The notes beneath the pieces are model-generated. The model did no database searches. It saw only the letters and a list, made by a program, of their open reading frames with translations, and was not told where the DNA came from. Positions 1 to 24,300 of a stretch of 26,394 nt of DNA are shown in pieces. A program made the position numbers and the translations under genes. Position 1 is the stretch's first letter. Every line of letters starts with the position of its first letter. This DNA comes from a virus. The stretch covers positions 1-26,394 of IMG/VR virus record IMGVR_UViG_3300042475_003908. The stretch is one strand, 5' to 3'.

Positions 1-921
1 CAACAAGCGGGCTTTGGCTTCCCCACCAACGGCCTCTGCCCATTTCCCCACCAGATCAAGCAATGCAAATTGCTTGGCCAACAGAGCGTTGTCTTCAGGG
101 GGTGGGGCTACGGTCGCCACGGTCACCTCATCGGTGATGATGTCAAAGTCATCGAACACTGTGTCAAAGATGAAGTCACGAAGCGCGGGGCAAGTTGCTT
201 TGGCTTTGCACCAGTGGCATTGCTTCGCCCCTGGGTTGAGAGGGGCGTCAACGTCTGTTGCTGCCACCGCAGCTGGCTTAACACAGCTCCCGAAGTCCAG
301 CAGGTCAGCCAAAGAGATGACGTGCTCACTGGTGTGCTGCAGACGTGGTTGGTGGATGGTCAGGCGCACTGTCTCAATGTCATAAAACAAGTTCACCAGT
401 TCGTAGGCGCCCAGAGCGTAAAGCATTAGCTGCTCGTTGTCCCCTGCGTCCACCCGCACCCCTCTGCCGTATTTCAGATCGTCAACGTTAAGCTCTTTCC
501 GATCGGGGAACACCACGATCGCGTCACTGGTGCCGAAGCTATCTGGCTCACCGGAATAGACGGAGAAGTCTACCCGTTGCTCAACCATCAACACGCCGCC
601 ACCTTTGGTCTTGGAAGTGATCGCGTCAACATACTCCTGAACATAATCGGCCATCTCTTCCGTGACTTCCCACGAGCTAGACGTCTGCTTGTCACGGCTT
701 AAGACTTTGATGATCCGGCCTAGATACGCCGTAGCGTTTAGCCCTTCGTTCAGGCACAGCGCCGCGAGTTCGTGCGCTGCTGTGCCTTCGTCTGCGTATT
801 CAGAGGAGGTGTCAGGGAACCCTGCTTCCTCTCTCACAGAGCCAGGGCAACGCATCCACCGGTGCGCACCACTTGGTGACAAGCGCGAGTGTCCTGTCTG
901 GTCGGTTGGGGTATGTTCCAT
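1..921 (-). CDS. DUF2800-type PD-(D/E)XK nuclease with likely Fe-S cysteines (partial)
   Basis: Translating the minus strand from an ATG at 921 gives an open frame of 307 codons that leaves the left edge, so the C-terminus is missing. Seen: a RecB-family nuclease core with H50 in GTAAHELA, D133 in FGTSDAIVV and D148-L-K150 in VDDLKYGRGV. Four cysteines follow the Cas4/AddB pattern: C25 (RWMRCPGS) near the N-terminus and C235-x2-C238-x5-C244. Known: DUF2800 proteins sit in phage replication modules beside ssDNA-binding, DNA polymerase and VirE genes, and are taken to be recombination exonucleases. Inferred: a 4Fe-4S-stabilised 5'-end-processing nuclease. It begins 14 bases after the upstream gene and is co-transcribed with it. 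The ribosome site is weak (AGAGAA), which suggests translational coupling. Confidence 0.85.
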   Translation of the reverse strand, partial: MEHTPTDQTGHSRLSPSGAHRWMRCPGSVREEAGFPDTSSEYADEGTAAHELAALCLNEGLNATAYLGRIIKVLSRDKQTSSSWEVTEEMADYVQEYVDAITSKTKGGGVLMVEQRVDFSVYSGEPDSFGTSDAIVVFPDRKELNVDDLKYGRGVRVDAGDNEQLMLYALGAYELVNLFYDIETVRLTIHQPRLQHTSEHVISLADLLDFGSCVKPAAVAATDVDAPLNPGAKQCHWCKAKATCPALRDFIFDTVFDDFDIITDEVTVATVAPPPEDNALLAKQFALLDLVGKWAEAVGGEAKARLL

Positions 922-935
922 TGGTTTGGTTTTCT

Positions 936-1340
936 CTAAGCTTCGAGGTGGGATTTGGCCGTTTCAATGAATGGGCCGTATTGCTCTGGCTTCAAGTCAC
1001 GCCCGTTTGCCGCCCCGAAAGCCGCGAGCACGTTTATCAAAAGGTCTTTGCCTTTTTGTGCCGCCAAGTCAGCTGCAGCATCCGCCACGTTTTTGTAAGA
1101 GAACAAAGTCCACCCGCACTCCTCTGCCGTAGCTGCAGGTGCTGCAGGTGCTGCAGGTGCTGCAGGTGCTGCAGGTGCTGCAGGTGCTGCAGGTGCGGGG
1201 GTTGCCTTTGCTACTTTAGCAGGCTCTACTGCTTTGACTGGTTGCGCCACCGTTTGCAATTTGTGGGGGGTGGTGCCAATGTTGTTGACGAACTCAACAA
1301 GCGCCTCAAGCGTTGGCAAGGTTACAGTGATCTGGTACAT
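936..1340 (-). CDS. Small phage protein with Ala/Pro linker, 134 aa (replication-module associated)
   Basis: The start at 1340 is chosen because AAGGAAC lies just upstream. Longer readings of the frame would run through the promoter at 1398-1426. The N-terminal part (MYQITVTLPTLEALVEFVNN) looks like a short beta-alpha segment. It is followed by an Ala-Pro-Ala linker made by seven identical 9-base repeats, then a C-terminal helical domain (roughly residues 84-134) with KGKDLLINVLAAFGAANGR and LKPEQYGPFIETAKSHL. That C-terminal pattern (helix, 'FGA', 'L.PEQY..F') is common in small phage proteins placed directly before DUF2800 nucleases, often mis-annotated as 'rRNA biogenesis protein Rrp5'. 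Their function is unknown; a role with the nuclease or ssDNA-binding protein is inferred from position only. Confidence 0.75.
   Translation of the reverse strand: MYQITVTLPTLEALVEFVNNIGTTPHKLQTVAQPVKAVEPAKVAKATPAPAAPAAPAAPAAPAAPAAPAATAEECGWTLFSYKNVADAAADLAAQKGKDLLINVLAAFGAANGRDLKPEQYGPFIETAKSHLEA
1132..1194. repeat. Seven perfect tandem copies of a 9-base repeat
   Basis: The unit GCTGCAGGT (plus strand) occurs seven times without a mismatch, in frame inside the minus-strand gene at 936-1340. It encodes the Ala-Pro-Ala linker. The complete lack of synonymous change points to recent expansion by slippage, so copy number may vary between relatives. Confidence 0.97.
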
Positions 1341-1397
1341 TCGTTGTTCCTTTTTGCGAATATGTTTTAGGTTAGCTTTATTCCTAACTCCCTGTGC

Positions 1398-1426
1398 AAT
1401 ATGCCGCGAGTTTTTAAAGTTGTCAA
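1398..1426 (-). promoter_or_regulatory. Sigma70-like promoter for the nuclease operon
   Basis: On the minus strand TTGACA (1426-1421), a 17-base spacer and CATATT (1403-1398) form a near-consensus promoter. Transcription would start near 1391, giving a leader of about 50 bases. The -35 lies in the palindrome GTTGACAAC (1419-1427), which recurs at the -35 of the 6500-6528 promoter. A GTTAG...CTAAC inverted repeat at 1371-1388 lies in the leader and could be an operator or small hairpin. Confidence 0.7.
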
Positions 1427-1487
1427 CCCCTTTTGATACGCTAACGCTAAAATTTTTATTCCATCGGTGGCCAACACAAGTAAGCCC

Positions 1488-1517
1488 TTGACGGCGCATA
1501 TGGTTTTCCTTTATTCT
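1488..1517 (+). promoter_or_regulatory. Possible promoter for the 1561 regulator
   Basis: TTGACG (1488-1493) is followed after 18 bases by TATTCT (1512-1517), about 45 bases before the ATG at 1561. It is divergent from the promoter at 1398-1426, with about 60 bases between the two -35 boxes. That interval contains TTAGCG repeated in tandem on the minus strand (near 1438-1450). The -10 box is only moderate. Confidence 0.45.
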
Positions 1518-2264: not shown

Positions 2265-2522
2265 ATGTCTGGGCCTAACGCCATCACTGTGTTGTTGTTT
2301 ATTGGTGAAGTTTCCAAGATAACCAGGTTATCCCGGCGCACTATCCAAAAGTACGTGGATACTGGCCAATTCCCCCCACCCTTCAAAATTGGCAACCGCA
2401 ACGCTTGGCTTGAGAGCACGGTGCTGGATTGGGTTACCGCGCAGTCTAAAAAGCAACGGGTGCCGGTGTTGACGCCAGGGCTGGCGCCAATCTTGAAGGA
2501 TGGGGATTCTTATGAGCCATGA
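2265..2522 (+). CDS. AlpA/MerR-like HTH DNA-binding protein, 85 aa
   Basis: The ATG at 2265 is preferred over an in-frame TTG at 2226, which falls at the predicted transcription start. AGAAAG lies upstream. Residues about 13-55 (IGEVSKITRLSRRTIQKYVD, then FPPPFKIG and AWLESTVLDWV) match the winged HTH_17/AlpA pattern: HTH, a 'G.FP.P.K.G' wing and a 'W..s.V..W' helix. Family members act as excisionases or transcription activators of phage and plasmid genes. Here it directly precedes, and overlaps by 11 bases, the primase-helicase gene. A regulator or accessory replication-initiation protein is therefore more likely than an excisionase, since no integrase is seen. Confidence 0.75.
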   Translation: MSGPNAITVLLFIGEVSKITRLSRRTIQKYVDTGQFPPPFKIGNRNAWLESTVLDWVTAQSKKQRVPVLTPGLAPILKDGDSYEP

Positions 2523-4878
2523 AGCTTACCGCTTAGCCCGCGCTCTTGAGCCGCTGGTCTATCGTTGCCGCACTGACGTTACTGCTAGAAAGTCGCGGAC
2601 GCAAGGCATGGGGAGCATGTTGTGGACTAGGGAGGCCATCACCGCCGGCCGCTTAGCCGCGCATGTTGAGGGGCGCATTGGGCGCGGTGTGTGCCCTATC
2701 CGCGAAGGGGAGAGCGTGTGCCAAGTCGCGGTGTTCGATCTTGATGACCACAAGGGTGACACGCCTGTTGATGTGATGCTGGGCACGGCGCGTAAGATCA
2801 GTGACCGCTTGTTCTTTGAAGGCCTGCATGCCCACGCTTTCACGTCTTCAGGGGGCAAGGGCATCCACCTCTACCTGATGTGGGATTTGCCCCAAGACGC
2901 TTACTCTGTGCGCAGGTTCCTGTTTGATGTACTGGCGGGTTGTGGTTTTAAGAGCGGCACAGGTGGGGTTAACGCTGGGGAGATAGAAGTGTTCCCCAAG
3001 CAAGACCAGGTGCCTATGGGCGGCTTTGGCTCGCAGTTTATCCTGCCTCTGTTCAACGCCAGCGTGCCTCTTGATCTAAGCGCAGGGCAGCGCCTAGATC
3101 GTGAGGCGGTCTGCCGCGATGACTTCTGGGTAGCGTCTGCACCGGTGCCTGTGCTGACCAAGGTGGTGCGGTTGCCCCGCGCTATCTCTTCCACGGGGGA
3201 ATGGGTCAAGTACGTGGAGTACATGACGGCGGTTGATCCTGACTGTGGGTATGATGATTGGTTCCGCATTGCTCAAGGGTTGCACTTTGAGAGCGAGGGT
3301 TCAGAGGATGCGTTCATGGCGTGGGATGATTGGTCATCTTCAGGGGGCAGCTACCCTGGCACGGAAGCTCTTTACGCTAAATGGCTGTCGATCCGTGGGG
3401 ATTCTCCTGACCCTGTGACTGGTCAATCCATCATTGTGATCGCGCGCAAGCATAGCTACGGCGGGGATTACGCGGCGGACTTTGACAATGAAGTCGATCT
3501 GACTGCGTTTGAACAGCTGACCACTAGGTTTGAGGGTGGGGAGGTGTATGTTGACGCTGGGGCTACGGGGACTGGGGTTGGCGCTGGGGTTGGCGCTGGG
3601 GTTGGCGCTGGGGTTGTAGGGGGTGGTGCTAATGTTATCGCGGCGGCCAATGCGGCCAACGCTGCTTCGGCCGCGGCGGCTAGAGTCTTCACCTCATTGC
3701 CTAGGGTCAAGCGCAACAAGAACGCGGAGATTGAGGCGGTCAAAGAGAATGTGTTCGCGTTCCTCAACCGTCCTGATCTGACGAAGTGTGACCTGCGCTT
3801 TGACGCTTTCCGTGCGGAGATTGTGATGCGCACAGAGAGCGGCTGGCGTGCCTTTGGTGATGACGATTACTTTGAGTTGGCGATGCGGTTGGAGAAGGAC
3901 TGGGGCTTCCGCTCTATCCCCAAAGAGCTGATCCGTGACGCTGTGTCTATGGTTGCCAATGTGAATCGTTTCGATAGCGCGGTGCATTGGTTGGAGAGCC
4001 TACCGGCGTGGGATGGACAGCCTCGCATTGATTCTTTCTTCCCCGTGTACTTGAGCGCGGAAGACAACGCCTACACCCGTTCAGTGGGTTCTTATTTGTG
4101 GACGGGCTTGGCGGCAAGGGTGTTGTCCCCTGGTTGCCAGCTTGACATGGTGCCGATTCTGGAAGGGGCGCAGGGCGCGCGCAAAACCTCTGCGGTCAAG
4201 GCTCTCGTTCCCACCCCTGAACAATATTGCGTTATTTCTTTTGGGGAAAAAGATGACGATTTAGCCAGGAAAATGCGTGGCCGCTTGGTGGCGGAGATCG
4301 GGGAGTTGCGGGGATTGCACACCCGTGAACTCGAAACGATTAAGGAATTTATCACCAGGACGGACGAGCTATGGGTCCCGAAATTCAAAGAGTTCGGCGC
4401 CAGCTTTGCTAGGCGTTTAATGTTCATTGGAACCACGAACCAGGATGAGATTCTGGCAGACGAAACGGGCAACCGTAGGTGGCTACCCGTGCACGTTGGG
4501 TTGTGTGACGTTGACGCCATCGTGCGGGATCGTGTGCAGTTGTGGGCGGAGGCAAGGCTTAGATACCAACAGAATGGGGTTGAGTTCAAGACGGCAGAAA
4601 CATTGGCAGCAGCGGTGCACGAACATTACCTTGTGCAAGATTCATGGGGGGATGTTCTTGACGCTTGGCTGTACGCGCCAGGGCTTGATGGGGTGGTTCC
4701 TTTCTCGCTTGAGTATCTGCGCATCCACGATGTTTTGAGGGATGTTTTTGCCTTTGATACCAAGCAGGTGAAACGGACAGATGAATTGAGGTTGGGCAAA
4801 TTGCTTAGGGCGCGGGGGTATAGCAAGCGGGTAAGGCGCATTGAAGGGCGCAACGTGAAAGCATGGGTTAAAGACTAG
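2512..4878 (+). CDS. Primase (AEP)-PriCT-2-VirE/SF3-like helicase fusion, 788 aa
   Basis: The ATG at 2512 is chosen over 2500 because GGGG sits at proper spacing there, while at 2500 the AAGG abuts the start. Residues about 40-215 form an archaeo-eukaryotic primase core: metal-binding FDLDD (75-79), the SSGGKGIHL motif with H119, and EVFPKQDQ (159-166). Residues about 230-320 resemble PriCT-2 (YDDWFRIAQGL, DDWSSSGGSYPG). A Gly/Ala/Val linker (about 350-392) follows. Residues about 480-670 form a VirE-family P-loop ATPase: GAQGARKTS (552-560), VAEIGEL (593-599) and FIGTTNQDEILADETGNRRW (638-657). Such fusions lay primers and unwind DNA at phage forks. Together with the left-edge nuclease it forms the replication module. 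The primase active site and the ATPase motifs look intact. Confidence 0.9.
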   Translation: MSHEAYRLARALEPLVYRCRTDVTARKSRTQGMGSMLWTREAITAGRLAAHVEGRIGRGVCPIREGESVCQVAVFDLDDHKGDTPVDVMLGTARKISDRLFFEGLHAHAFTSSGGKGIHLYLMWDLPQDAYSVRRFLFDVLAGCGFKSGTGGVNAGEIEVFPKQDQVPMGGFGSQFILPLFNASVPLDLSAGQRLDREAVCRDDFWVASAPVPVLTKVVRLPRAISSTGEWVKYVEYMTAVDPDCGYDDWFRIAQGLHFESEGSEDAFMAWDDWSSSGGSYPGTEALYAKWLSIRGDSPDPVTGQSIIVIARKHSYGGDYAADFDNEVDLTAFEQLTTRFEGGEVYVDAGATGTGVGAGVGAGVGAGVVGGGANVIAAANAANAASAAAARVFTSLPRVKRNKNAEIEAVKENVFAFLNRPDLTKCDLRFDAFRAEIVMRTESGWRAFGDDDYFELAMRLEKDWGFRSIPKELIRDAVSMVANVNRFDSAVHWLESLPAWDGQPRIDSFFPVYLSAEDNAYTRSVGSYLWTGLAARVLSPGCQLDMVPILEGAQGARKTSAVKALVPTPEQYCVISFGEKDDDLARKMRGRLVAEIGELRGLHTRELETIKEFITRTDELWVPKFKEFGASFARRLMFIGTTNQDEILADETGNRRWLPVHVGLCDVDAIVRDRVQLWAEARLRYQQNGVEFKTAETLAAAVHEHYLVQDSWGDVLDAWLYAPGLDGVVPFSLEYLRIHDVLRDVFAFDTKQVKRTDELRLGKLLRARGYSKRVRRIEGRNVKAWVKD
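3574..3616. repeat. 12-base tandem repeat in the primase-helicase linker
   Basis: GGGGTTGGCGCT occurs three times without mismatch (3574-3609), with a partial fourth copy. It encodes a Val-Gly-Ala-Gly linker between the primase/PriCT half and the helicase half, and is followed by Ala/Asn-rich codons. A flexible tether of variable length is the simplest reading. Confidence 0.95.
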
Positions 4879-4950: not shown

Positions 4951-5115
4951 TTAGTTTGGTTGCTGCTGTTGTGCCCTTAAGTCTTTCAACATCTTTTCGA
5001 GCTGTGCAGCGACAGAACGGGATTCCCCCGCCGCCGTGTCTACCAACCATTGATAAAGATCGGGGGGTAGGCGCAACGAGGTTTGCATCTTAAGGGCTTT
5101 GGGTGTTCTAGCCAT
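4951..5115 (-). CDS. Arc-type ribbon-helix-helix DNA-binding protein, 54 aa
   Basis: The ATG at 5115 is taken as start; in-frame ATGs at 5142 and 5157 are alternatives, giving 63 or 68 residues. Residues 9-17 (KMQTSLRLP) form the typical RHH beta strand. They are followed by helix PDLYQWLVDTAAG and a second helix beginning at SRSVAAQLEKMLKDL, the Arc/MetJ pattern with a conserved Ser at the second helix cap. These proteins bind DNA as dimers and usually repress their own operon. It is the last gene of the minus-strand cassette and overlaps the previous gene by 8 bases. Its likely target is the repeat-rich region at 6500-6600, but that is inference. Confidence 0.75.
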   Translation of the reverse strand: MARTPKALKMQTSLRLPPDLYQWLVDTAAGESRSVAAQLEKMLKDLRAQQQQPN

Positions 5116-5392
5116 CGCGCGATCTTTTTGCTTCGGGTTCATAAATTTCTGTTTCAAATTTTGCTACCAACCTTTTTAGATCATTCACTTCCTTTTTTAG
5201 GTCGTCCACTTCATCCAGCAAGGCATCCTGATTTTCCTTTAAATCTTCATGTTCTTGCAGTAGGTGCGCCAATGTATCCACGAGGTCACTAAGATGGATC
5301 GGGCGGTGCCCCGCCATCAAGATTCGGTCGTCTTCATGGGGTATGTGCAACAGGTTCAGCGTGTTTTCGCATAGGTCATGTAATACGGTCAT
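5108..5392 (-). CDS. Hypothetical coiled-coil protein, 94 aa
   Basis: The ATG at 5392 is preceded by AGAAAGACAAGACA, a leader shared exactly with the gene at 5424-5645. The family is not recognised. The C-terminal half (about residues 45-82) is a strongly charged heptad helix (HEDLKENQDALLDEVDDLKK, then EVNDLKRLVAKFE), consistent with a parallel coiled coil and therefore oligomerisation. The N-terminal half has HDLCENTLNLLHIP and is globular or helical. Small acidic coiled-coil proteins in early phage operons often bind host proteins; that is only a possibility here. Confidence 0.6.
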   Translation of the reverse strand: MTVLHDLCENTLNLLHIPHEDDRILMAGHRPIHLSDLVDTLAHLLQEHEDLKENQDALLDEVDDLKKEVNDLKRLVAKFETEIYEPEAKRSRDG

Positions 5393-5415
5393 TGTCTTGT
5401 CTTTCTATGGTTAGG
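5390..5415 (-). repeat. Reiterated translation leader, copy 1
   Basis: The 26 bases from the ATG of the gene at 5108-5392 back through its AGAAAG ribosome site and CCTAACCATAG are identical to 5643-5668, at the start of the gene at 5424-5645. Confidence 0.9.
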
Positions 5416-5423
5416 GATTAGGG

Positions 5424-5645
5424 CTATAACCATTGCAAACGGTATTTAAAACAGTTGTGCGTTAAGGTTTTACGCGTGCGCTTAGGCTTAGAATCGCGCC
5501 ACCAGCTGTAGGTGGCCGCATGTTGTGTTTCCTCTTTGTCGTAATAGATGGCAACATCCATTAATTTAGCCCGCTGCTTTTCAGGGTAATATTGAAGCGT
5601 TGCAGCGTCGGTTGTGGGTACGTGTTTGGCGTAAAGTGTTGGCAT
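5424..5645 (-). CDS. Hypothetical basic protein, 73 aa
   Basis: The ATG at 5645 follows AGAAAGACAAGACA, identical to the leader of the next gene downstream. The family is not recognised. Seen: a basic C-terminus (RDSKPKRTRKTLTHNCFKYR) and an aromatic middle (YYDKEETQHAATYSWW), so nucleic-acid binding is possible. No signal peptide or membrane segment is visible. It is the fourth of six co-directional small genes, a setting typical of early accessory phage proteins. Confidence 0.55.
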   Translation of the reverse strand: MPTLYAKHVPTTDAATLQYYPEKQRAKLMDVAIYYDKEETQHAATYSWWRDSKPKRTRKTLTHNCFKYRLQWL

Positions 5646-5668
5646 TGTCTTGTCTTTCTATGGTTAGG
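5643..5668 (-). repeat. Reiterated translation leader, copy 2
   Basis: It is identical over 26 bases to 5390-5415 and covers the ATG, ribosome site and the stop codon of the preceding gene (TAA at 5664-5666). Confidence 0.9.
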
Positions 5669-5867
5669 CGTTGTGGGTAGGGATAAAACTTTGTTCATGG
5701 GCGGCCAACATGGTGGGGGTTAACGCCCCTTTCAACGCCGCGTCCACCAGGTGCAGGCCAATGCTTTGGCAACCAAACAAAGTGATTGCCTCTGCCAAAC
5801 GGCTTTGGATAGCCGTGTACTCTGCGGCCTTGTTGATGGAATTTTTAAAAGCTGTTGCGTTGCGCAT
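5664..5867 (-). CDS. Hypothetical small protein, 67 aa
   Basis: The ATG at 5867 is preceded by AAGGACGACCACC, a good ribosome site. The family is not recognised. The sequence is largely helical (AFKNSINKAAEYTAIQSRLA, then HLVDAALKGALTPTMLAAHE) with a single Cys. No motif suggests an activity. Its 3' end lies inside the repeated leader of the next gene. The 88-base gap before it holds a G/T-rich TTAGGGATTAGGG stretch on the plus strand, also seen at 5411-5423. Confidence 0.55.
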   Translation of the reverse strand: MRNATAFKNSINKAAEYTAIQSRLAEAITLFGCQSIGLHLVDAALKGALTPTMLAAHEQSFIPTHNA

Positions 5868-5955
5868 GGTGGTCGTCCTTGGTTTAGGGATTAGGGGTTG
5901 GGTTTAGGTTTAATGGTTGCGTATTGGTACCATAACCAAGAATAGTTAACATCCC

Positions 5956-6111
5956 CTAAAGACTGTTTTTGTCGCTGTTGGCTTGAGGCTCTGGGGGCAA
6001 TCTGTTGTCGGGGATCACCATGAACGCTGTCATGAAGATGGTGAACATGATGGCCAGACCTAGCGCGAATTGCCAAAGCTTTGGATGGGTGAATTGATCT
6101 TGATTTTGCAT
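5956..6111 (-). CDS. Small single-pass membrane protein, 51 aa
   Basis: The ATG at 6111 is preferred over an upstream start at 6156 because AAAGGACTAACCACT precedes it and the longer version would overlap the previous gene. Residues about 13-30 (FALGLAIMFTIFMTAFMV) form one hydrophobic helix, preceded by a short polar N-terminus (MQNQDQFTHPKLWQ) and followed by a Pro-rich tail. The layout fits a one-pass inner-membrane peptide. It is too far from the virion genes to be called a holin. Superinfection exclusion or host membrane modulation is possible for such an early membrane peptide, but nothing in the sequence proves it. Confidence 0.6.
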   Translation of the reverse strand: MQNQDQFTHPKLWQFALGLAIMFTIFMTAFMVIPDNRLPPEPQANSDKNSL

Positions 6112-6145
6112 AGTGGTTAGTCCTTTGTGATGGGGGTTAAAGGGG

Positions 6146-6436
6146 TCAAACGTCACACCGCGCCCAAACAGAGCCGTCAGGGCAGGTCAAAAGATTGCCA
6201 ACATCTTCTAAATAATGAGAACGAAACTCTACCGCTGCAGCCTCAAAACTGGGGTAATGGCTAAAATCACCAACCCAACCAATAGGATCAAACTCACGAT
6301 CTTCTAACGTGGCGTCTGCCATTTCGTCATAATAGTTGAATAGCGTTTCGAATTGTTCTCTGGTAATGCCGCTGTACTGCTGTAAATTTTTGCAAAGTAA
6401 CCACGCTTGGCCAGCACTCAAAATTTCGATGATCAT
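6146..6436 (-). CDS. Hypothetical acidic phage protein, 96 aa
   Basis: The ATG at 6436 follows AAGGAAAAATAAA, and the promoter at 6500-6528 lies 64 bases upstream, so this is the first gene of the cassette. Residues about 26-75 (LFNYYDEMADATLED, FDPIGWVGDFSHYPSFEAAA) resemble a small family common in unrelated phages. Its pattern is 'LF.Y.eE.e.dt....EfDpi.....yseY.sleea...y', and its function is unknown. The protein is acidic. Being first in an early operon with a strong promoter suggests an immediate-early role. Confidence 0.6.
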   Translation of the reverse strand: MIIEILSAGQAWLLCKNLQQYSGITREQFETLFNYYDEMADATLEDREFDPIGWVGDFSHYPSFEAAAVEFRSHYLEDVGNLLTCPDGSVWARCDV

Positions 6437-6499
6437 TTTTATTTTTCCTTGTTTTATTTATTGGTTAGAGAGCCTAAGACCTTAAGCCTTATTGATAGC

Positions 6500-6528
6500 A
6501 GTATGGTAGCAAATTGGTACGTTGTCAA
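6500..6528 (-). promoter_or_regulatory. Strong sigma70-like promoter for the small-gene cassette
   Basis: On the minus strand TTGACA (6528-6523), exactly 17 bases, then CATACT (6505-6500). The -35 is embedded in GTTGACAAC (6521-6529), the same 9-base palindrome found at the nuclease-operon promoter. The TTTTACGTG repeats lie directly upstream of the -35. Confidence 0.7.
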
Positions 6529-6530
6529 CT

Positions 6531-6589
6531 GTAAAATTTTACGTGCTGTTTTTTACGTGCAATTTTTTACGTGTGTTATTTTTTACGTA
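6531..6589. repeat. Palindrome and spaced TTTTACGTG iteron-like repeats
   Basis: GTAAAATTTTAC (6531-6542) is a perfect 12-base palindrome. TTTTACGTG occurs at 6537-6545, 6551-6559 and 6565-6573, with a final TTTTACGTA at 6581-6589. Start-to-start distances are 14, 14 and 16 bases. Regular spacing upstream of a promoter suggests cooperative protein binding, either an operator array or origin iterons. Confidence 0.85.
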
Positions 6590-6688
6590 ATACCCTAGTT
6601 TGGCGTTTTTGCTTCTCTTCTTTACCCTTCTTTTTGGGCTTAGGGTAGTTTGCGGGATGCCTTATGCACTGCGCGTTTTGGGATAGCA

Positions 6689-6880: not shown

Positions 6881-7276
6881 GTGGGCGCATACGATTATCT
6901 TTTATTGCTATTTACACGCAAAAAGTTTTGTGCTAGGCGCGTTGCCCGCGTCACTGGTGGCCAATTCTCCCCTTGCGTTGGGCATGAGATTGGGTTAGAA
7001 CAAAACGCAATGGGGGTTGTGCGTATGCTGGTTAAGCGGCAAATTCTGGTTGGTGAAAAGGGCAGGGCAGGCCAAGACCACCATGCGGCACGGTTGAGCG
7101 ATGAAGAGGTTGAGGAAATGCGAACGTTGTACGAGGATGGGCTAGGAACCTACAGCACGCTGGCAAAGCGTTTTGGCGTGGCTAAGAGCACAGTGGCCTA
7201 TATTTGCCAATACGCTAGGCGCAACGCCATCCCTCGCACGATCACCGTGGTTGTTAAGCAAGCGGGGCAGGCATGA
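6881..7276 (+). CDS. HTH DNA-binding protein upstream of terminase, up to 131 aa
   Basis: The C-terminal part (GQDHHAARLSDEEVEEMRTL, then YSTLAKRFGVAKSTVAYICQ) is a clear resolvase/HTH_23-type helix-turn-helix, with the 'a.Ls..ev..mr.lye.G' lead-in frequent in small phage proteins. The start is uncertain. A GTG at 6881 gives 131 residues; ATGs at 7010 and 7025 give 88 or 83 residues and keep the HTH. No start has a strong ribosome site. The gene overlaps the small terminase by four bases (ATGA). It may regulate the virion operon from the adjacent control region or help terminase recognise DNA. Confidence 0.65.
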   Translation: MGAYDYLLLLFTRKKFCARRVARVTGGQFSPCVGHEIGLEQNAMGVVRMLVKRQILVGEKGRAGQDHHAARLSDEEVEEMRTLYEDGLGTYSTLAKRFGVAKSTVAYICQYARRNAIPRTITVVVKQAGQA

Positions 7277-7800
7277 CAAGCGAACAACGCAAACCCGTGT
7301 ACTACTCGCATGAGCTGTTTGATCGTATCTGCCAGCGCATATCAGAGGGCACCAGCCTAACGGCTATCTGCCGTGAGCCTGGAATGCCAACGCCACCCAC
7401 GGTGCATCGTTGGATCAGCAACGATCCCGCGTTGGCTGATTGCTACGTGCAAGCGGTTAAGGCTAGGGCGGAATTGATCTTTGATGAAATTCTTGAGATT
7501 ACCGATGACGCCCGCAACGATTGGATGGAAAAGCAGCTGGAAAACGGCAAAGTGATTGAGGTGCTGAACAAAGAACACGTTCAACGCTCTAAGCTTCGCG
7601 TTGACGCACGGAAATGGGTGCTAGGATGCATGAACCCCGCGCAGTATGGAAACTTCACAAGGCAAGAGCTAACAGGCCGTGACGGTGCGCCCCTGCACCC
7701 CACGGTGCCAGTTAGCGACGCACAACTAGCCGCCGCGCTTAACGCCTTGGTAAAACCGCCCGCCGCTGAACAGGATGCGGATGTTAGCGACCTCTTTTAG
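7273..7800 (+). CDS. terS: Terminase small subunit, 175 aa
   Basis: The N-terminal half (DRICQRISEGTSLTAICRE, then TPPTVHRWI) is the HTH of phage small terminases that bind the packaging site. The middle (AVKARAELIFDEILEITDDA) and LRVDARKWVLGCMNPAQYG match the oligomerisation part of the same family, common in proteobacterial phages. Small terminases form rings that recognise the genome and hand it to the ATPase subunit. The gene couples to the HTH gene (ATGA) and overlaps the large subunit by about 20 bases. The acidic C-terminus DADVSDLF probably contacts the large subunit. Confidence 0.85.
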   Translation: MTSEQRKPVYYSHELFDRICQRISEGTSLTAICREPGMPTPPTVHRWISNDPALADCYVQAVKARAELIFDEILEITDDARNDWMEKQLENGKVIEVLNKEHVQRSKLRVDARKWVLGCMNPAQYGNFTRQELTGRDGAPLHPTVPVSDAQLAAALNALVKPPAAEQDADVSDLF

Positions 7801-9373
7801 CCCTGAACAAGTCGCGGCATTCACACCCCAACAACGCGCAGAGGCCTTGCGGTTGATCCACTTGCGCGGGGGAATTAAGCCTTGGTATCCATTGCCTGGC
7901 CCTCAAACCATGGCCTATCAGAGCCAAGCGGATATTATCGGCTTTGGTGGTGCTGCTGGTGGCGGTAAGACCGATTTGATGTGCGGCAAAATCCTTACGC
8001 AGCACCAAGTAGGGATGATCTTAAGGCGCGAGGGAACGCAGCTAACGGGCATTGTGGACCGTCTGACCAGTTTGCTTAAGGGCAGGGATGGTTACAATGG
8101 GCAAGAAAAGATTTGGCGGCTCCCTGGCGGCCAGCAAATTGAGTTTGGATCGGTGCCCAACCCTGGCGATGAAACGAAATACCAAGGCCGCCCGCATGAC
8201 TTCCTAGGCTTTGACGAAGCGACCAATTTCTTAGAGGCGACCGTGCGCTTCCTGTTGGGTTGGTTGCGGTCCACTGACCCCAAGCAACGCTGCCAAGCCT
8301 TGCTGACGTTCAACCCACCAACAACCGCTGAAGGGCGTTGGATCATTCCGTTCTTTGCCCCTTGGCTTGATCCCCAATACCCTAAGCCCGCCGCTCCAGG
8401 TGAGGTGCGCTGGTGCGCGTCTATCAACGGTAAGGATCGCTGGGTGGCCGATAACCGCAGCTTTGTGCTTGATGGTGATGAAATTTGCTATGATTTTGAT
8501 CCTAAAGCGTACAAGCCAGAGGATGTTATCCTGCCGCTATCTCGCACGTTCATCCCCTCTCGCGTGTCGGACAACCCCCACCTGTTCGGCACTGGCTACA
8601 TGCGCACGCTGCAGGCCTTGCCTGAACCCTTGCGTTCGCAAATGCTGTATGGTGATTTCCAAGCGGGCATTGAAGACGACCCCTGGCAGGTTATCCCTAC
8701 CACGTGGGTGCAGTTGGCGATGGATCGATGGAAGGAACCAGCACGCAAAGCTCCGATGCAGTCCGTAGGATGTGACGTGGCGCGTGGGGGTAAGGACAAC
8801 ACGATCATCGCCCGCCTGCATGAGGATAATTGGTTTGATATGCCATTGGTTTACACGGGCGCACAAACCCCTGACGGCCCAGCAATCATGGGGCTAATCA
8901 TGGCCGCAACACGCGACAACGCGGTGCAGCATATCGATGTAATAGGGGTGGGGGCATCGCCCTATGACTTTTTGAGCAAAGCACGGCAACCCGTGGTAGG
9001 TGTGAACGTGAGCGAAGCCGCAGTAGGAACGGATCAATCTGGCCGCCTAAGGTTCAAGAATCAGCGTTCACAGTTGTGGTGGCGCATGCGGGAAGAGTTA
9101 GACCCCAACAACAACACTGGCCTGACCCTGCCCCCATCCAAAGAGCTACTTGCAGACCTCACTGCCCCTAAATGGGAATTGAAAGGATCGACAATTTACG
9201 TGGAAAGTAGGGAAGAGATTGTCAACCGTATTCGCAGGTCACCAGACTGGGCGACTGCCTACATTCTAGCCCTTATCCGCACGCCTAAAATTCAACATTT
9301 AACGGGCATGGGCACGGGTGGGCATTCAACGCCACAAGTCAACTATGATCCGTACGCAAGTTTAGATCACTAA
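7781..9373 (+). CDS. terL: Terminase large subunit (packaging ATPase-nuclease), 530 aa
   Basis: The ATG at 7781 is preferred to 7775 because AGGA (7772-7775) sits five bases before it. The ATPase half has Walker A GGAAGGGKT (56-64), Walker B FLGFDE (141-146) with catalytic E146, and a coupling motif TFNPP (176-180). The nuclease half starts near residue 325 with GCDVARGGKDNT (D332) and IDVIGVGASPYDF (D386), the RNase-H-fold acids. It translocates DNA into the procapsid and cuts it. The length is normal for the family, and all visible catalytic residues are present. The mode of packaging cannot be told from this window. Confidence 0.95.
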   Translation: MLATSFSPEQVAAFTPQQRAEALRLIHLRGGIKPWYPLPGPQTMAYQSQADIIGFGGAAGGGKTDLMCGKILTQHQVGMILRREGTQLTGIVDRLTSLLKGRDGYNGQEKIWRLPGGQQIEFGSVPNPGDETKYQGRPHDFLGFDEATNFLEATVRFLLGWLRSTDPKQRCQALLTFNPPTTAEGRWIIPFFAPWLDPQYPKPAAPGEVRWCASINGKDRWVADNRSFVLDGDEICYDFDPKAYKPEDVILPLSRTFIPSRVSDNPHLFGTGYMRTLQALPEPLRSQMLYGDFQAGIEDDPWQVIPTTWVQLAMDRWKEPARKAPMQSVGCDVARGGKDNTIIARLHEDNWFDMPLVYTGAQTPDGPAIMGLIMAATRDNAVQHIDVIGVGASPYDFLSKARQPVVGVNVSEAAVGTDQSGRLRFKNQRSQLWWRMREELDPNNNTGLTLPPSKELLADLTAPKWELKGSTIYVESREEIVNRIRRSPDWATAYILALIRTPKIQHLTGMGTGGHSTPQVNYDPYASLDH

Positions 9374-19079: not shown

Positions 19080-21334
19080 TGGCTGTTAAGGTTCCAAGCT
19101 ATGATAATTTCTCAACCCGACCTTCAGGGGGCGGCACGCCGGGCTTTAGCGACCCAGGCTTCGGCCGCGCGGCCTCTATCGCGGGCGAGCAACAGCAACG
19201 CCTTGGGCAAGCGGTAGAACGGGCGGCGGACACCGCGGTCAGCATAAAAGTTGACGCGCTGGACGAAGTCAATAAGGTGCGCGTTGCGGACGCGGTGAAC
19301 CAAATGCGTGAACGCGCGATGCAACTCACCTACGATCCTAAAGATGGGTTCCTTAACCTCAAAGGCAACAACGCCTTAGAGCGGCCAGACGGTCGGGCGC
19401 TTCCTGACGAATACGGCGGAAGGTTAGACGAAGCGATTGGTAGTATCTCTGGGGGATTAGGGAGCGAAGCCCAGCGGCGGGCGTTCATGGCGCAGGCCAG
19501 CAGCTTCAGGTCGAGCTTCACAGGTGACGTGCAGTCGCACATGCTTAAAGAATTTCGGAACTACAGCCAATCTGTGGCCGATGGGGATTTCAAACTCTCG
19601 ATGCAGGAAGCTGAACTAAACTGGGATAACCCTGACAAAATCGATGCGGCTATCAACGGGGTCAAAGACCTTGAATCCGGCGTAAACTTTGGGGGCATCA
19701 AACAGTCGATCTACCAGAAAGCCAAGCTGACGGGAATGAGCGCCAGCGAAGCGCAAGCTGCCATGAACGAAGCGGAAAGTTCTGTTCACGCCAAAGTTGT
19801 GCAGTCTGCTCTGGTCAACAACAACCCTACCTACGCAACCGCGTACCTTGACAAGAACAAAGCCAACATGACGGCTTCGGATATTCTTAGGGTGCAAGGG
19901 CAGGTCAATCAGAAAATGGACGCGCACCAAGCCATTACCGCTTCCAGCCAAGCAATGAAAGACTACAGCCCGGCGTTCAACCCTACCGACATGGACCGTC
20001 TCATCAACATTGTGCAAGGCATGGAAAGCGGCGGCCGGCGGTTTGGCCAAGATGGTAAACCGCTTACCTCTTCCGCTGGGGCTAAGGGCGAGATGCAGGT
20101 CATGGACACCACCAATTTTAACCCTGGCTTTGGGGTAGAACCCGCTAAGGACGACAGCCTAGACGAACGGAAGCGCGTAGGCACGGATTACTTGACCGCA
20201 ATGGTCAAACGTTATGGAGACGCGCCGAAAGCTTTGGCAGCGTACAATGCGGGGCCAGGTACCGTGGACAACGCGATCGCGGCGGCCGAGAAGGCGGGCA
20301 ACCCTAACGATTGGATGAACCACCTTAAAGAGTTTCAAAGCCCCGCCAGCAATACCGAAACATTAGCGTATGTGGATAAAGGCATGAAGAGTTTCGGAGC
20401 GGGCGCCGGCGCGGCCAAACTCCCCACAGAGGCAGAGTTTATCAACACCGCTGTCGAGAAATTAGGCCCCAACCCCCGTTTGGGAGCAGTGGAAGCTACC
20501 CGCACGCAAGCGGCAGCGCAGTACAAACTCATAGGAGAAGTGCACAAGCAACGTGGAGACGCGGCGCTTGAGGTCGCGCAACAGGAATTGATTGCCAATG
20601 GCGGCAACTTCAACCTGCTCAAGCCTGAAACTGTTAGCAATCTCTCCCGTTATGCGCCCGCAAAATATGATGACGCGATGAAGTTCGCCAAAGCGATTTC
20701 GTCAGACAATGTGGTGACCAACATGGCAGAGTATTCCTGGGCCGTTCAACGCCCAGCAGAATTGGCGGCGATGTCAGAGCCTATCTTCCAACAGTTTTTG
20801 CGAACGAACTTCGACAAAGGCGATCAAGAAAAGATCATCACGCTGCGGGCGGGGTACCTCACAGGCACCAGTGACGACAGCCCCAAAGCGATCAACAATA
20901 CTTTGGTCAACAGCACGCTTAACAATAGGCTGGAATCGTTGGGTATCAACCCCAACCCTAAGAAATCAGACGACCCAGACGGCGTGGAAACGGCGCGTAT
21001 CGGCCAGATTCAAAAATTTGTGAGGGATGAGATTTACGCCCAGCAACAAGCAATAGGGCGCAAGCTCGCGCCAAAAGAAGTGGAGACCGCCATCGACGCC
21101 ATCTTTGCGAAATCAGTGAATATCCAGAAAACATTATTTGGCTACCAAGAATCAACTATATTGGGGGTTAAATTGGGGCAGAAAAACTTTAAGTTACTTG
21201 ATATGACTGTAGACGACATTCCTAAGGCGGATGTAGAAAACATCAAAAAGAAGTTCGCTGAACGAACCAATATCCCCCCTACGGACATGGATATTTTGAG
21301 ATTTTACCGTAAATGGAAGTTAGGTGATGGCTAA
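19079..21334 (+). CDS. Internal virion protein with lytic transglycosylase domain, 751 aa
   Basis: The ATG overlaps the previous stop by one base (TAATG). Residues about 1-300 are polar helices. A lytic transglycosylase (SLT) domain lies near 305-410: GMESGGRRFG with probable catalytic E316, AKGEMQVM and AYNAGPGTVDNA (389-400). The C-terminal 340 residues are helical and unrecognised. Such proteins are packaged, ejected with the genome, and cut peptidoglycan so that the DNA conduit can cross the wall. T7 carries this enzyme on gp16; here it is on the protein at the gp15 position. The gene overlaps the giant gene by eight bases. Confidence 0.88.
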   Translation: MAVKVPSYDNFSTRPSGGGTPGFSDPGFGRAASIAGEQQQRLGQAVERAADTAVSIKVDALDEVNKVRVADAVNQMRERAMQLTYDPKDGFLNLKGNNALERPDGRALPDEYGGRLDEAIGSISGGLGSEAQRRAFMAQASSFRSSFTGDVQSHMLKEFRNYSQSVADGDFKLSMQEAELNWDNPDKIDAAINGVKDLESGVNFGGIKQSIYQKAKLTGMSASEAQAAMNEAESSVHAKVVQSALVNNNPTYATAYLDKNKANMTASDILRVQGQVNQKMDAHQAITASSQAMKDYSPAFNPTDMDRLINIVQGMESGGRRFGQDGKPLTSSAGAKGEMQVMDTTNFNPGFGVEPAKDDSLDERKRVGTDYLTAMVKRYGDAPKALAAYNAGPGTVDNAIAAAEKAGNPNDWMNHLKEFQSPASNTETLAYVDKGMKSFGAGAGAAKLPTEAEFINTAVEKLGPNPRLGAVEATRTQAAAQYKLIGEVHKQRGDAALEVAQQELIANGGNFNLLKPETVSNLSRYAPAKYDDAMKFAKAISSDNVVTNMAEYSWAVQRPAELAAMSEPIFQQFLRTNFDKGDQEKIITLRAGYLTGTSDDSPKAINNTLVNSTLNNRLESLGINPNPKKSDDPDGVETARIGQIQKFVRDEIYAQQQAIGRKLAPKEVETAIDAIFAKSVNIQKTLFGYQESTILGVKLGQKNFKLLDMTVDDIPKADVENIKKKFAERTNIPPTDMDILRFYRKWKLGDG

Positions 21335-24300
21335 TCTTGATGAATTTTCGGACAGTTTTTTTAAACAAGAAGAGGCCGCTGCCGCGACTCTGAAACGGAA
21401 CAGTGCACAGGCTAATCTTGATGAATTTTCGGACAGTTTCTTTAAACAAGAAGAGGCTGCTGCCGCGACCCTAATACGGAACAGTGCGCAGTTGGCGCAG
21501 GGCACCAACCCTGACCAAGAGGCGTCTTTCCAATCGCTCGCCAGCGCGACAGGCACCCCGCTTGAGACAGTCAAAGCTTTGCCGGATGTGGTTAAACAGA
21601 AGGCCACCTCGATGGCCGTTCCTGCAGACGCTATCGCCAAGGGATACCCAAGTCTCTCTAAGTTTCTAGGCCAGCCCAACAACATGGCGATAGCGCATGA
21701 TGATGTAGACAATTTGGCCGGCATTGAGAAACTGATAGGTAAGACTTCGGTCAGCGCGTACCGGCCTTCGTGGGGCGAGCGCGTGCATGATTGGATCGGT
21801 GAAGCGTTCGGTATGCCCGGCCGCGAGCAGGCGCGAGCCACAATGATTCTGACCGCGCGGGATATGGGTTTGACCCCCGCAGAGTTCAGAGCAAAGACTG
21901 GTGGGATGTCTGAAATACCCGATCAGATCGGCAGTAAATTTATCAACAGTGTGAGTTTCGGGCTTATCCCTGACGTGGCGCTCGACCCGCTAACCACGAG
22001 CGGGGGCATTGCGGCGGGTGTTGGGGGCTTAGCTGGGTTCCTTGGTGGTCCTGCTGTTGTTGCCTCAAAAGGGCTAACACGGGCGGGGGCGCTTGGCTTC
22101 ACCAAAGTGGCGGCCACAGACAGTTTTGCGAAAGCTTTGGCGCGTGGCGTGTGGCGGGATGTCATGGTTATGGGCGCTGCCTTTGGGCTAGGGAACATAG
22201 GCGAGGCGATTGATTCCCCAGACATAGCAACCGCCGCCACGGAAACGGCGGCTGCGGTGGGGACTGGGATGCTTCTGGGCGTGGTTAACGCTGTTGGGGC
22301 GCGGGTGCTGCCCGACAACACTTTCGCGCAGTTTATCGCCCGTGCGGTTGGGGTCAACGCCGCAACCGATGAGATTCAAGGCACCAGTCTTACCGACGAA
22401 CGCCCCATCGCGCAGAAAGTTTTCGACTACGGGGTCAACACTTTCTTTTCCCTCAAGGGCGCAGGCCGCGTTCAGGGTGGTTGGTTCAAAGACGCGGCCA
22501 AAGCTGACCTTGCGGTGCAAGACCACGCCACGATCAGCACCCTATCCGAATTAGCGGCAGCGTCCAAGCTTCGTGGCCGAGACCTAGAAAGTTTCAAAAA
22601 CTTTGTCACAGACGCAGCGGAGCAGGAAGGGTTGACTGATCTGTTTGTGAATCCTACTGATCTAGCGCAGGCGGGGGTTGACCCACTTCAGATCGCGGTG
22701 GCGGTGCCATCTCTGCGGGAACCGCTATTGGCCGCGCTGCAAACAGGTACGGACGTGAAAATCCCCGTGGCTGATTTCGTTTCTCACATTGCTGGCAATG
22801 AACTTGGGCAGGCAATGGTCGACCACATGAAAACTGACCCGAATGGCTTCTCCAAAGCCCAAGCGGATAAGTTCACGGCAGAAGAAGGAGAAAGCCTCCG
22901 CGCCGATGTGGAGAAACTGCTTACTGAAAAACAAGGTGACGAAGCGTTCAAAGCCTCTCGCCAAGTGGTGTATGACGGGGTGCTTAAACAATTGCAGGAA
23001 GCTGGGCGGTTCACCAAGGACGTTAACGAGCCGTACGCAACGCTTCTCTCAAATTTTTATTCGGTGCAGGCTTCAAAACTTGGCGTGACCCCAGAAGAAA
23101 TGTTCGCTAGGTATCCTGTGTCGGTGAGTTCGGGAAGCGCGTTCGGCAAGGCCAATACCTTAGAAGAGGGAGCGAAGCCAGAAGACCTCAACCAATTGCA
23201 GTCTTCTCTAAGCTCTGCGGTATCCACGTTAAAACAAGAGAAGGGCACAGGCCAGCAACTGCTAGGCATCTTGAAAAATACCCCAGGTGTTAAGGCTGAA
23301 GAGCTTGCGTGGACGGGGCTTGACACTTTTCTAGCGGGCAAGAAGTCTGTCACCAAGGCAGAGATTGAGAAACACCTAGAAGACAACCAGGTGCAGGTGG
23401 AGGAGATCACCCACCGTAGCGGCGACCCTAGCCAAGACTACACACAATTCTCAAAATACACCCTCCCTGGCGGTGAGAATTACCGCGAAGTCTTGATGAC
23501 CCTACCCCCAAAAGACGGGGAACAGGGCTACAAAAGCTCTCACTTCAAAGAGGCTAATGTTATCGCTCACCTGCGGCTTAATGACCGCGTGGATGCGGAT
23601 GGCAAGCGGGTTTTGTTCGTTGAGGAATTGCAATCGGACTGGCACCAAGAGGGCCGCAAGAAGGGGTACGGTGCGGGGGAAGCAAGCGTTCCTGACGCCC
23701 CATTCAAAAAGAATTGGCACGAGATGGCTTTCCGCCGCGCGGTGCAATTGGCAGTGGAAGAGGGTTACGATAAAGTCGCTTGGACGACAGGGGAGCAACA
23801 AGCAGATCGTTATGACCTAAGCAAACAGGTCGAATCCATCACGGTCCCAATGGTGAACGAGGGCAGCCGCTCCGTGCGCATCAAGAGCAAAGAGGGGGAT
23901 ACCACCTTCAACTTGATGGTGGACAACAACGGAGTGGTAGACAGCTCGTACACCGGTGCGCAATTCCGTGGCAAGACCTTAGACGAAGTGGTCGGTAAGG
24001 ACATGGCCGAAAAGATCATGAAGGCGACCGAACCCACAGAGTTTTCAGGCGAGGGTTTGAAGGTTGGTGGCGCGGGGATGAAAGGGTTCTATGACCAAAT
24101 TTTACGCAAGTACGCGGACACTTTCGGCAAAAAGTTTGGGGCTAAGGTTGGGGAAACAGAGATACCCACAGAGGAAACAGGCACCAAAGTTCATTCCTTA
24201 GAGATCACCCCTGCCATGCGCGATAGCGCGGACAATTTCTCTTTGTTCCAAAAGGTCATCAAGAGACGTGGTTCTTTCAATGTTGAGACCAGCACGATCA

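Follow-up and report, generated by a model that had tools for sequence, protein, structure and literature searches.

Repeated stop-RBS-start junctions in a small-gene array of a BPP-1-like phage, and a gene present or absent between two junction copies

The closest described precedent for the locus presented here is found in the Cluster I mycobacteriophages Brujita and Island3, where a small orphan gene is present or absent and is bounded by a repeat of about 50 bp (PMC3029335). This event was attributed to general recombination, with its direction unresolved, and was likened to the boundary sequences of lambdoid phages (PMC3029335). The latter, as far as they are presented in that citation, are conserved and short, lie at gene boundaries and are able to target the homologous exchange of modules. 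Start-Associated Sequences (SAS), known from Cluster K mycobacteriophages and Cluster EF Microbacterium phages, are 13 bp long and occur in 10-19 copies with one consensus per cluster (PMC3203893, PMC7302621). In T4-type phages, the repeated intercistronic regulatory segments named PeSLs, each comprising an early promoter and a stem-loop, have been proposed to mediate the shuffling of small genes between T4-like phages (Arbiol 2010, Comeau 2014, both as cited via PMC4503421).

With Brujita and Island3, the present locus shares the gain or loss of one orphan gene between short repeats. Their repeat covers the upstream gene's 3' end, whereas ours covers a stop-RBS-start junction, found in a BPP-1-like podovirus and accompanied by several related junctions in the same array. 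To the extent that the lambdoid boundary sequences are described in the citing work, they resemble these junctions as short gene-boundary sequences that are possible exchange targets, but here the repeats are adjacent within one genome and what can be seen is the gain or loss of a gene, not swapping between phages. As with SAS, an identical start-proximal sequence that may include the upstream stop codon precedes different small non-structural genes; unlike SAS, with their 10-19 copies of one consensus, the repeats are 26 and 31 bp long, have two copies each and represent two different sequences, one found twice in 26.4 kb and the other repeated in closely related (sister) contigs. The likeness to PeSLs of T4-like phages is conceptual, both being repeated intercistronic segments linked to small-gene shuffling; by the description in the citing work, a PeSL unit holds an early promoter and a stem-loop, and neither was found in the present leaders.

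The window, by which we mean the whole 26,394-bp stretch of the virus record analysed, is a fragmentary contig of a BPP-1-like podovirus. Its TerL is 58.8% identical to that of Bordetella phage BPP-1 and 61-62% identical to those of Limnohabitans phage DC33 and phage zth2-2, and further relatives lie in contigs from Achromobacter and Cupriavidus genomes. The order primase, accessory slot, endonuclease-like gene, TerS and TerL is the same in BPP-1; the related TerL and this gene order place the window among the BPP-1-like phages (Rauchvirus). The record of phage DC33 (PQ492659.1) is classed in Inoviridae, yet its TerL is 61% identical to that of this tailed phage, and the taxonomy of the record looks wrong. 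In BPP-1 the accessory slot holds one gene, bbp28. The interval from primase to TerL measures 2,900 bp in the window against 765-2,054 bp in 40 relatives (median over all 41 loci, 1,085 bp); since it exceeds that of all 40 relatives, the array described below sits in an expanded accessory island. Tandem repeats were also observed elsewhere in the window: a 9-bp unit, CTGCAGGTG, at 1115-1213, which codes for Ala/Pro in the minus-strand gene at 936-1499, and an 81-bp duplication (93% identical) at 21329-21490, close to the beginning of a very long ORF, which exceeds 2,200 aa in locus L133.

Between the primase/helicase and the terminase small subunit, six small minus-strand genes occupy positions 4951-6436:
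2500 to 4878, plus strand: primase/helicase, one flank of the island
4951 to 5115, minus strand: gene F, last in the array, 54 aa, weakly ribbon-helix-helix/Arc-like, without the repeated leader
5108 to 5392, minus strand: gene A, 94 aa, coiled-coil-like, orphan in the search for relatives
5424 to 5645, minus strand: gene B, 73 aa, one weak relative in Caulobacter phage CcrPW (33%)
5664 to 5867, minus strand: gene C, 67 aa, orphan in the search for relatives
5956 to 6111, minus strand: gene D, 51 aa, orphan; one hydrophobic stretch resembles a membrane segment
6146 to 6436, minus strand: gene E, first in the array, 96 aa, orphan, found in the sister contigs only
6500 to 6528, minus strand: promoter-like site TTGACA-17-CATACT (L004 5832-5804), the sole such site at the array head
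7273 to 7800, plus strand: terminase small subunit, the other flank, followed by the large subunit at 7775-9373

The array genes are nearly all orphans, the search having returned no relatives beyond the sister contigs except the weak match of the 73-aa gene to CcrPW. That match is full-length, and the matching record region is labelled as terminal sequences of the 308-kb phage. The single promoter-like site at the array head is consistent with one operon; its occurrence does not exceed chance frequency, and promoter- and terminator-like sites were not above shuffled sequences. Just upstream of this site (6530-6600), three or four TTTTTTACGTG-like units are spaced about 14 bp apart and may be operators.

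The leaders of the array are the following:
5390 to 5415, minus strand: leader A, 26 bp, CCTAACCATAGAAAGACAAGACAATG, preceding the 94-aa gene; exact copy of 5643-5668
5411 to 5423, minus strand: 5' part of leader A (CCCTAATCCCTAA), common to leader C by exact-match count and alignment
5643 to 5668, minus strand: leader B, the identical 26-bp copy, preceding the 73-aa gene
5868 to 5903, minus strand: leader C of the 67-aa gene, with CCCTAATCCCTAA at 5884-5896 and further positions common with A
6108 to 6138, minus strand: leader D, AACCCCCATCACAAAGGACTAACCACTATGC, preceding the 51-aa gene; one copy in the window, site of the cassette gain or loss
6437 to 6478, minus strand: leader E of the first array gene (...CTCTAACCAATAAATAAAACAAGGAAAAATAAAA), weakly similar to A and B

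The preliminary description had reported an identical 26-base translation leader before two unrelated genes, and both points hold: copies A and B match exactly, and the two proteins behind them do not match each other. Chance does not account for the identity, as the 23-base core of the 26-mer found no match in 100 dinucleotide shuffles, with no chance copy expected, and the similarity of the two leaders has a shuffle p of about 0.001. A third copy was absent from the whole 26.4-kb record at up to three mismatches. Both copies terminate precisely at an ATG, that of a 94-aa ORF (5392 to 5108) and that of a 73-aa ORF (5645 to 5424), respectively. In leader B, the 26-mer also includes the TAA (5664-5666) that ends the upstream 67-aa gene, making this copy a stop-RBS-start junction and more than a leader.

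The same description had noted a 13-base identity between 5411-5423 and 5884-5896. TTAGGGATTAGGG indeed occurs exactly twice, with none expected, and it forms part of a longer similarity, of about 25 bp, between leaders A and C: the leaders of the genes starting at 5392 and 5867 align as CCCTAATCCCT-AACCATAGAAAGAC against CCCTAATCCCTAAACCA-AGGACGAC (shuffle p about 0.001). Leader A is therefore composite in its resemblances, its 3' part being common to B and its 5' part closest to C. The similarity of leader E to A and B (p about 0.015) is not significant once corrected for 15 pairs. Outside the window, the 26-mer is carried only by the two sister contigs; its 18-mer core also matches six other contigs, at sites that are no start leaders of related genes and that appear to be chance hits.

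These two public contigs bearing the 26-mer (3300042373_001805 and 3300042398_001107) made up the comparison set, and they are 99.8-99.95% identical to the window. Both retain copies A and B, and both contain one extra gene in the array, a 113-aa orphan lying between two copies of leader D. The two AACCCCCATCACAAAGGACTAACCACTATGC copies of the sisters are identical over 31 bp and stand 347 bp apart; in the window only one copy is found, and precisely one unit of leader plus gene, 347 bp long, is missing. Since the window joins the upstream flank of one copy to the downstream flank of the other, its junction equals a simple recombinant between the 31-bp copies. Gene gain or loss between boundary repeats has this appearance: a gene flanked by repeats in one allele, a single repeat in the shorter one. 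The only other indel between window and sisters is 9 bp in the CTGCAGGTG repeat, and of the distinct large indels seen when close relatives among the fetched loci are compared, only the leader D event has a junction repeat longer than 9 bp. The evidence base is one polymorphic cassette, whose direction is not polarised.

The difference could also be an artefact in which assembly collapsed two 31-bp leader copies, the true genome having seven array genes like the sisters. The junction does lie inside a perfect 31-bp repeat, and the contigs were assembled from metagenomes at unknown coverage. Common assemblers, however, use k-mers longer than 31, and the identical A/B repeat, whose copies are 253 bp apart, stands uncollapsed in every contig. 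The long allele is agreed on by the two sister contigs. Another contig (3300042310_000502), which matches the window at 100% identity along 12 kb, has its first base at window position 6108, exactly where the sequence common to both alleles begins. This start suggests an assembly-graph branch where two alleles meet, as expected if both coexist, and from the break point both may be present in the sample of that contig. We regard the collapse as unlikely, though it is the strongest of the alternatives; the probabilities expressed here for rival explanations are judgements and not computed values.

We consider it probable that junctions have been duplicated and that two copies together serve as direct repeats, allowing single genes to be gained or lost cleanly by homologous recombination. 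On this reading the island consists of unrelated small genes, probably co-transcribed, with a short stop-RBS-start junction between one gene and the next, and some of these junctions appear to be recent copies of one another (A/B over 26 bp, A/C over about 25 bp, and the 31-bp D pair of the sisters). A junction copy includes the stop of the gene upstream, the ribosome site and the start of the gene that follows, so that recombination between copies would remove or add one gene and one junction and leave the neighbours intact. The 347 bp gained or lost between the 31-bp copies would be one such product, the lineage of the window having presumably lost the gene by homologous or annealing recombination. 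The A/B pair could likewise recombine and remove the 73-aa gene, and new genes entering by recombination at an existing junction would create the leader copies.

The preliminary description had proposed a modular insertion point where small cargo genes are exchanged between leaders, and had pointed to relatives for gene gain or loss bounded by the leader. This idea stands in part. Leaders do bound the gain or loss of a small gene, between sisters and window, at 6108-6138; the event is not at the 26-bp leader, both copies of which persist in both sisters, and replacement of one cargo by another was not seen. Wider cargo exchange between leaders is plausible. No recombinase acting at the leader sites was identified. 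The phage encodes a PD-(D/E)XK exonuclease nearby, and an annealase was looked for beside it and not found. In the window (1-1499) as in another locus (L135:543-2383), this exonuclease (DUF2800) adjoins a 187-190-aa protein with an Ala/Pro tract, and the two are possibly a recombination or repair pair.

Selection, instead of recent copying, could also account for identical leaders if they formed a conserved regulatory element resembling SAS, a site for a phage or host factor controlling the translation of small genes. The copies occupy the exact position of the ribosome site and end at the ATG, a similarity based on CTAACCA is common to A, B, C and, weakly, E, and SAS elements precede genes of different families while avoiding structural genes (PMC3203893). 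On the other hand, SAS number 11-19 per genome, and no more copies of the 26-mer exist in 26 kb at up to three mismatches; a second, different repeated leader (D) occurs in the same array; and 26 bp reaches well past a ribosome site. A conserved RNA structure in the leader, which had been put forward as a check, did not emerge either, as no fold was significant against shuffles and an Rfam search gave no match. A regulatory element appears improbable to us, slightly more so than an assembly collapse. Finally, tandem duplication of leader plus gene followed by gene divergence, for which a precedent could be seen in locus L104, where four of five leader copies have products sharing N-termini, is very improbable here, since the array proteins and the 113-aa insert of the sisters show no similarity to one another, the genes behind A and B accordingly not being paralogues duplicated with their leader, and since DNA identity covers the leader yet stops at the start codon or a few bases from it, contrary to what old divergence would leave.

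The copied junctions can also be compared with those of more distant relatives. A survey of 136 non-redundant related loci turned up four in which unrelated ORFs follow closely matching leaders, namely the window, L045, L101 and L104; leader reuse is thus rare and does not characterise these phages as a whole. Each of the three distant relatives has its own sequence: a 26-bp leader before two unrelated genes in L045, one leader of about 30 bp in L101, shared by three different ORFs that immediately follow the primase, and a leader before five genes in L104, where the shared N-termini occur. A homologous gene of L101 and L104 (62% over 50 aa) has a different leader in each, namely that of its neighbours, which indicates that leaders and genes come apart. 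Leader copies look genome-specific. Leader-like repeats in L091, L048, L123, L074 and L167 were discounted, being repetitive coding DNA, low-complexity sequence or in-frame coding similarity. L091 (10900-11600, minus strand) contains tandem small Gly-rich genes in which a repeated WGxYPYRMVTR tail overlaps the next start. Tentatively, and with doubt, one may go further and imagine that some BPP-1-like phages keep, as a permanent site of recombination, a stop-RBS-start junction peculiar to their genome, the genes between copies being scarless excisable cassettes and the junction being homogenised genome by genome, whatever genes it serves.

The proposed process is already known in kind and is here described in a new phage group, the BPP-1-like phages. 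The small genes of phages are mostly orphans, and their entry to and exit from genomes are rarely seen. Near-identical sisters that differ by one leader-plus-gene unit make leader recombination a testable route of accessory-gene turnover, and leader repeats flag candidate cassette genes, such as the 73-aa gene between A and B.
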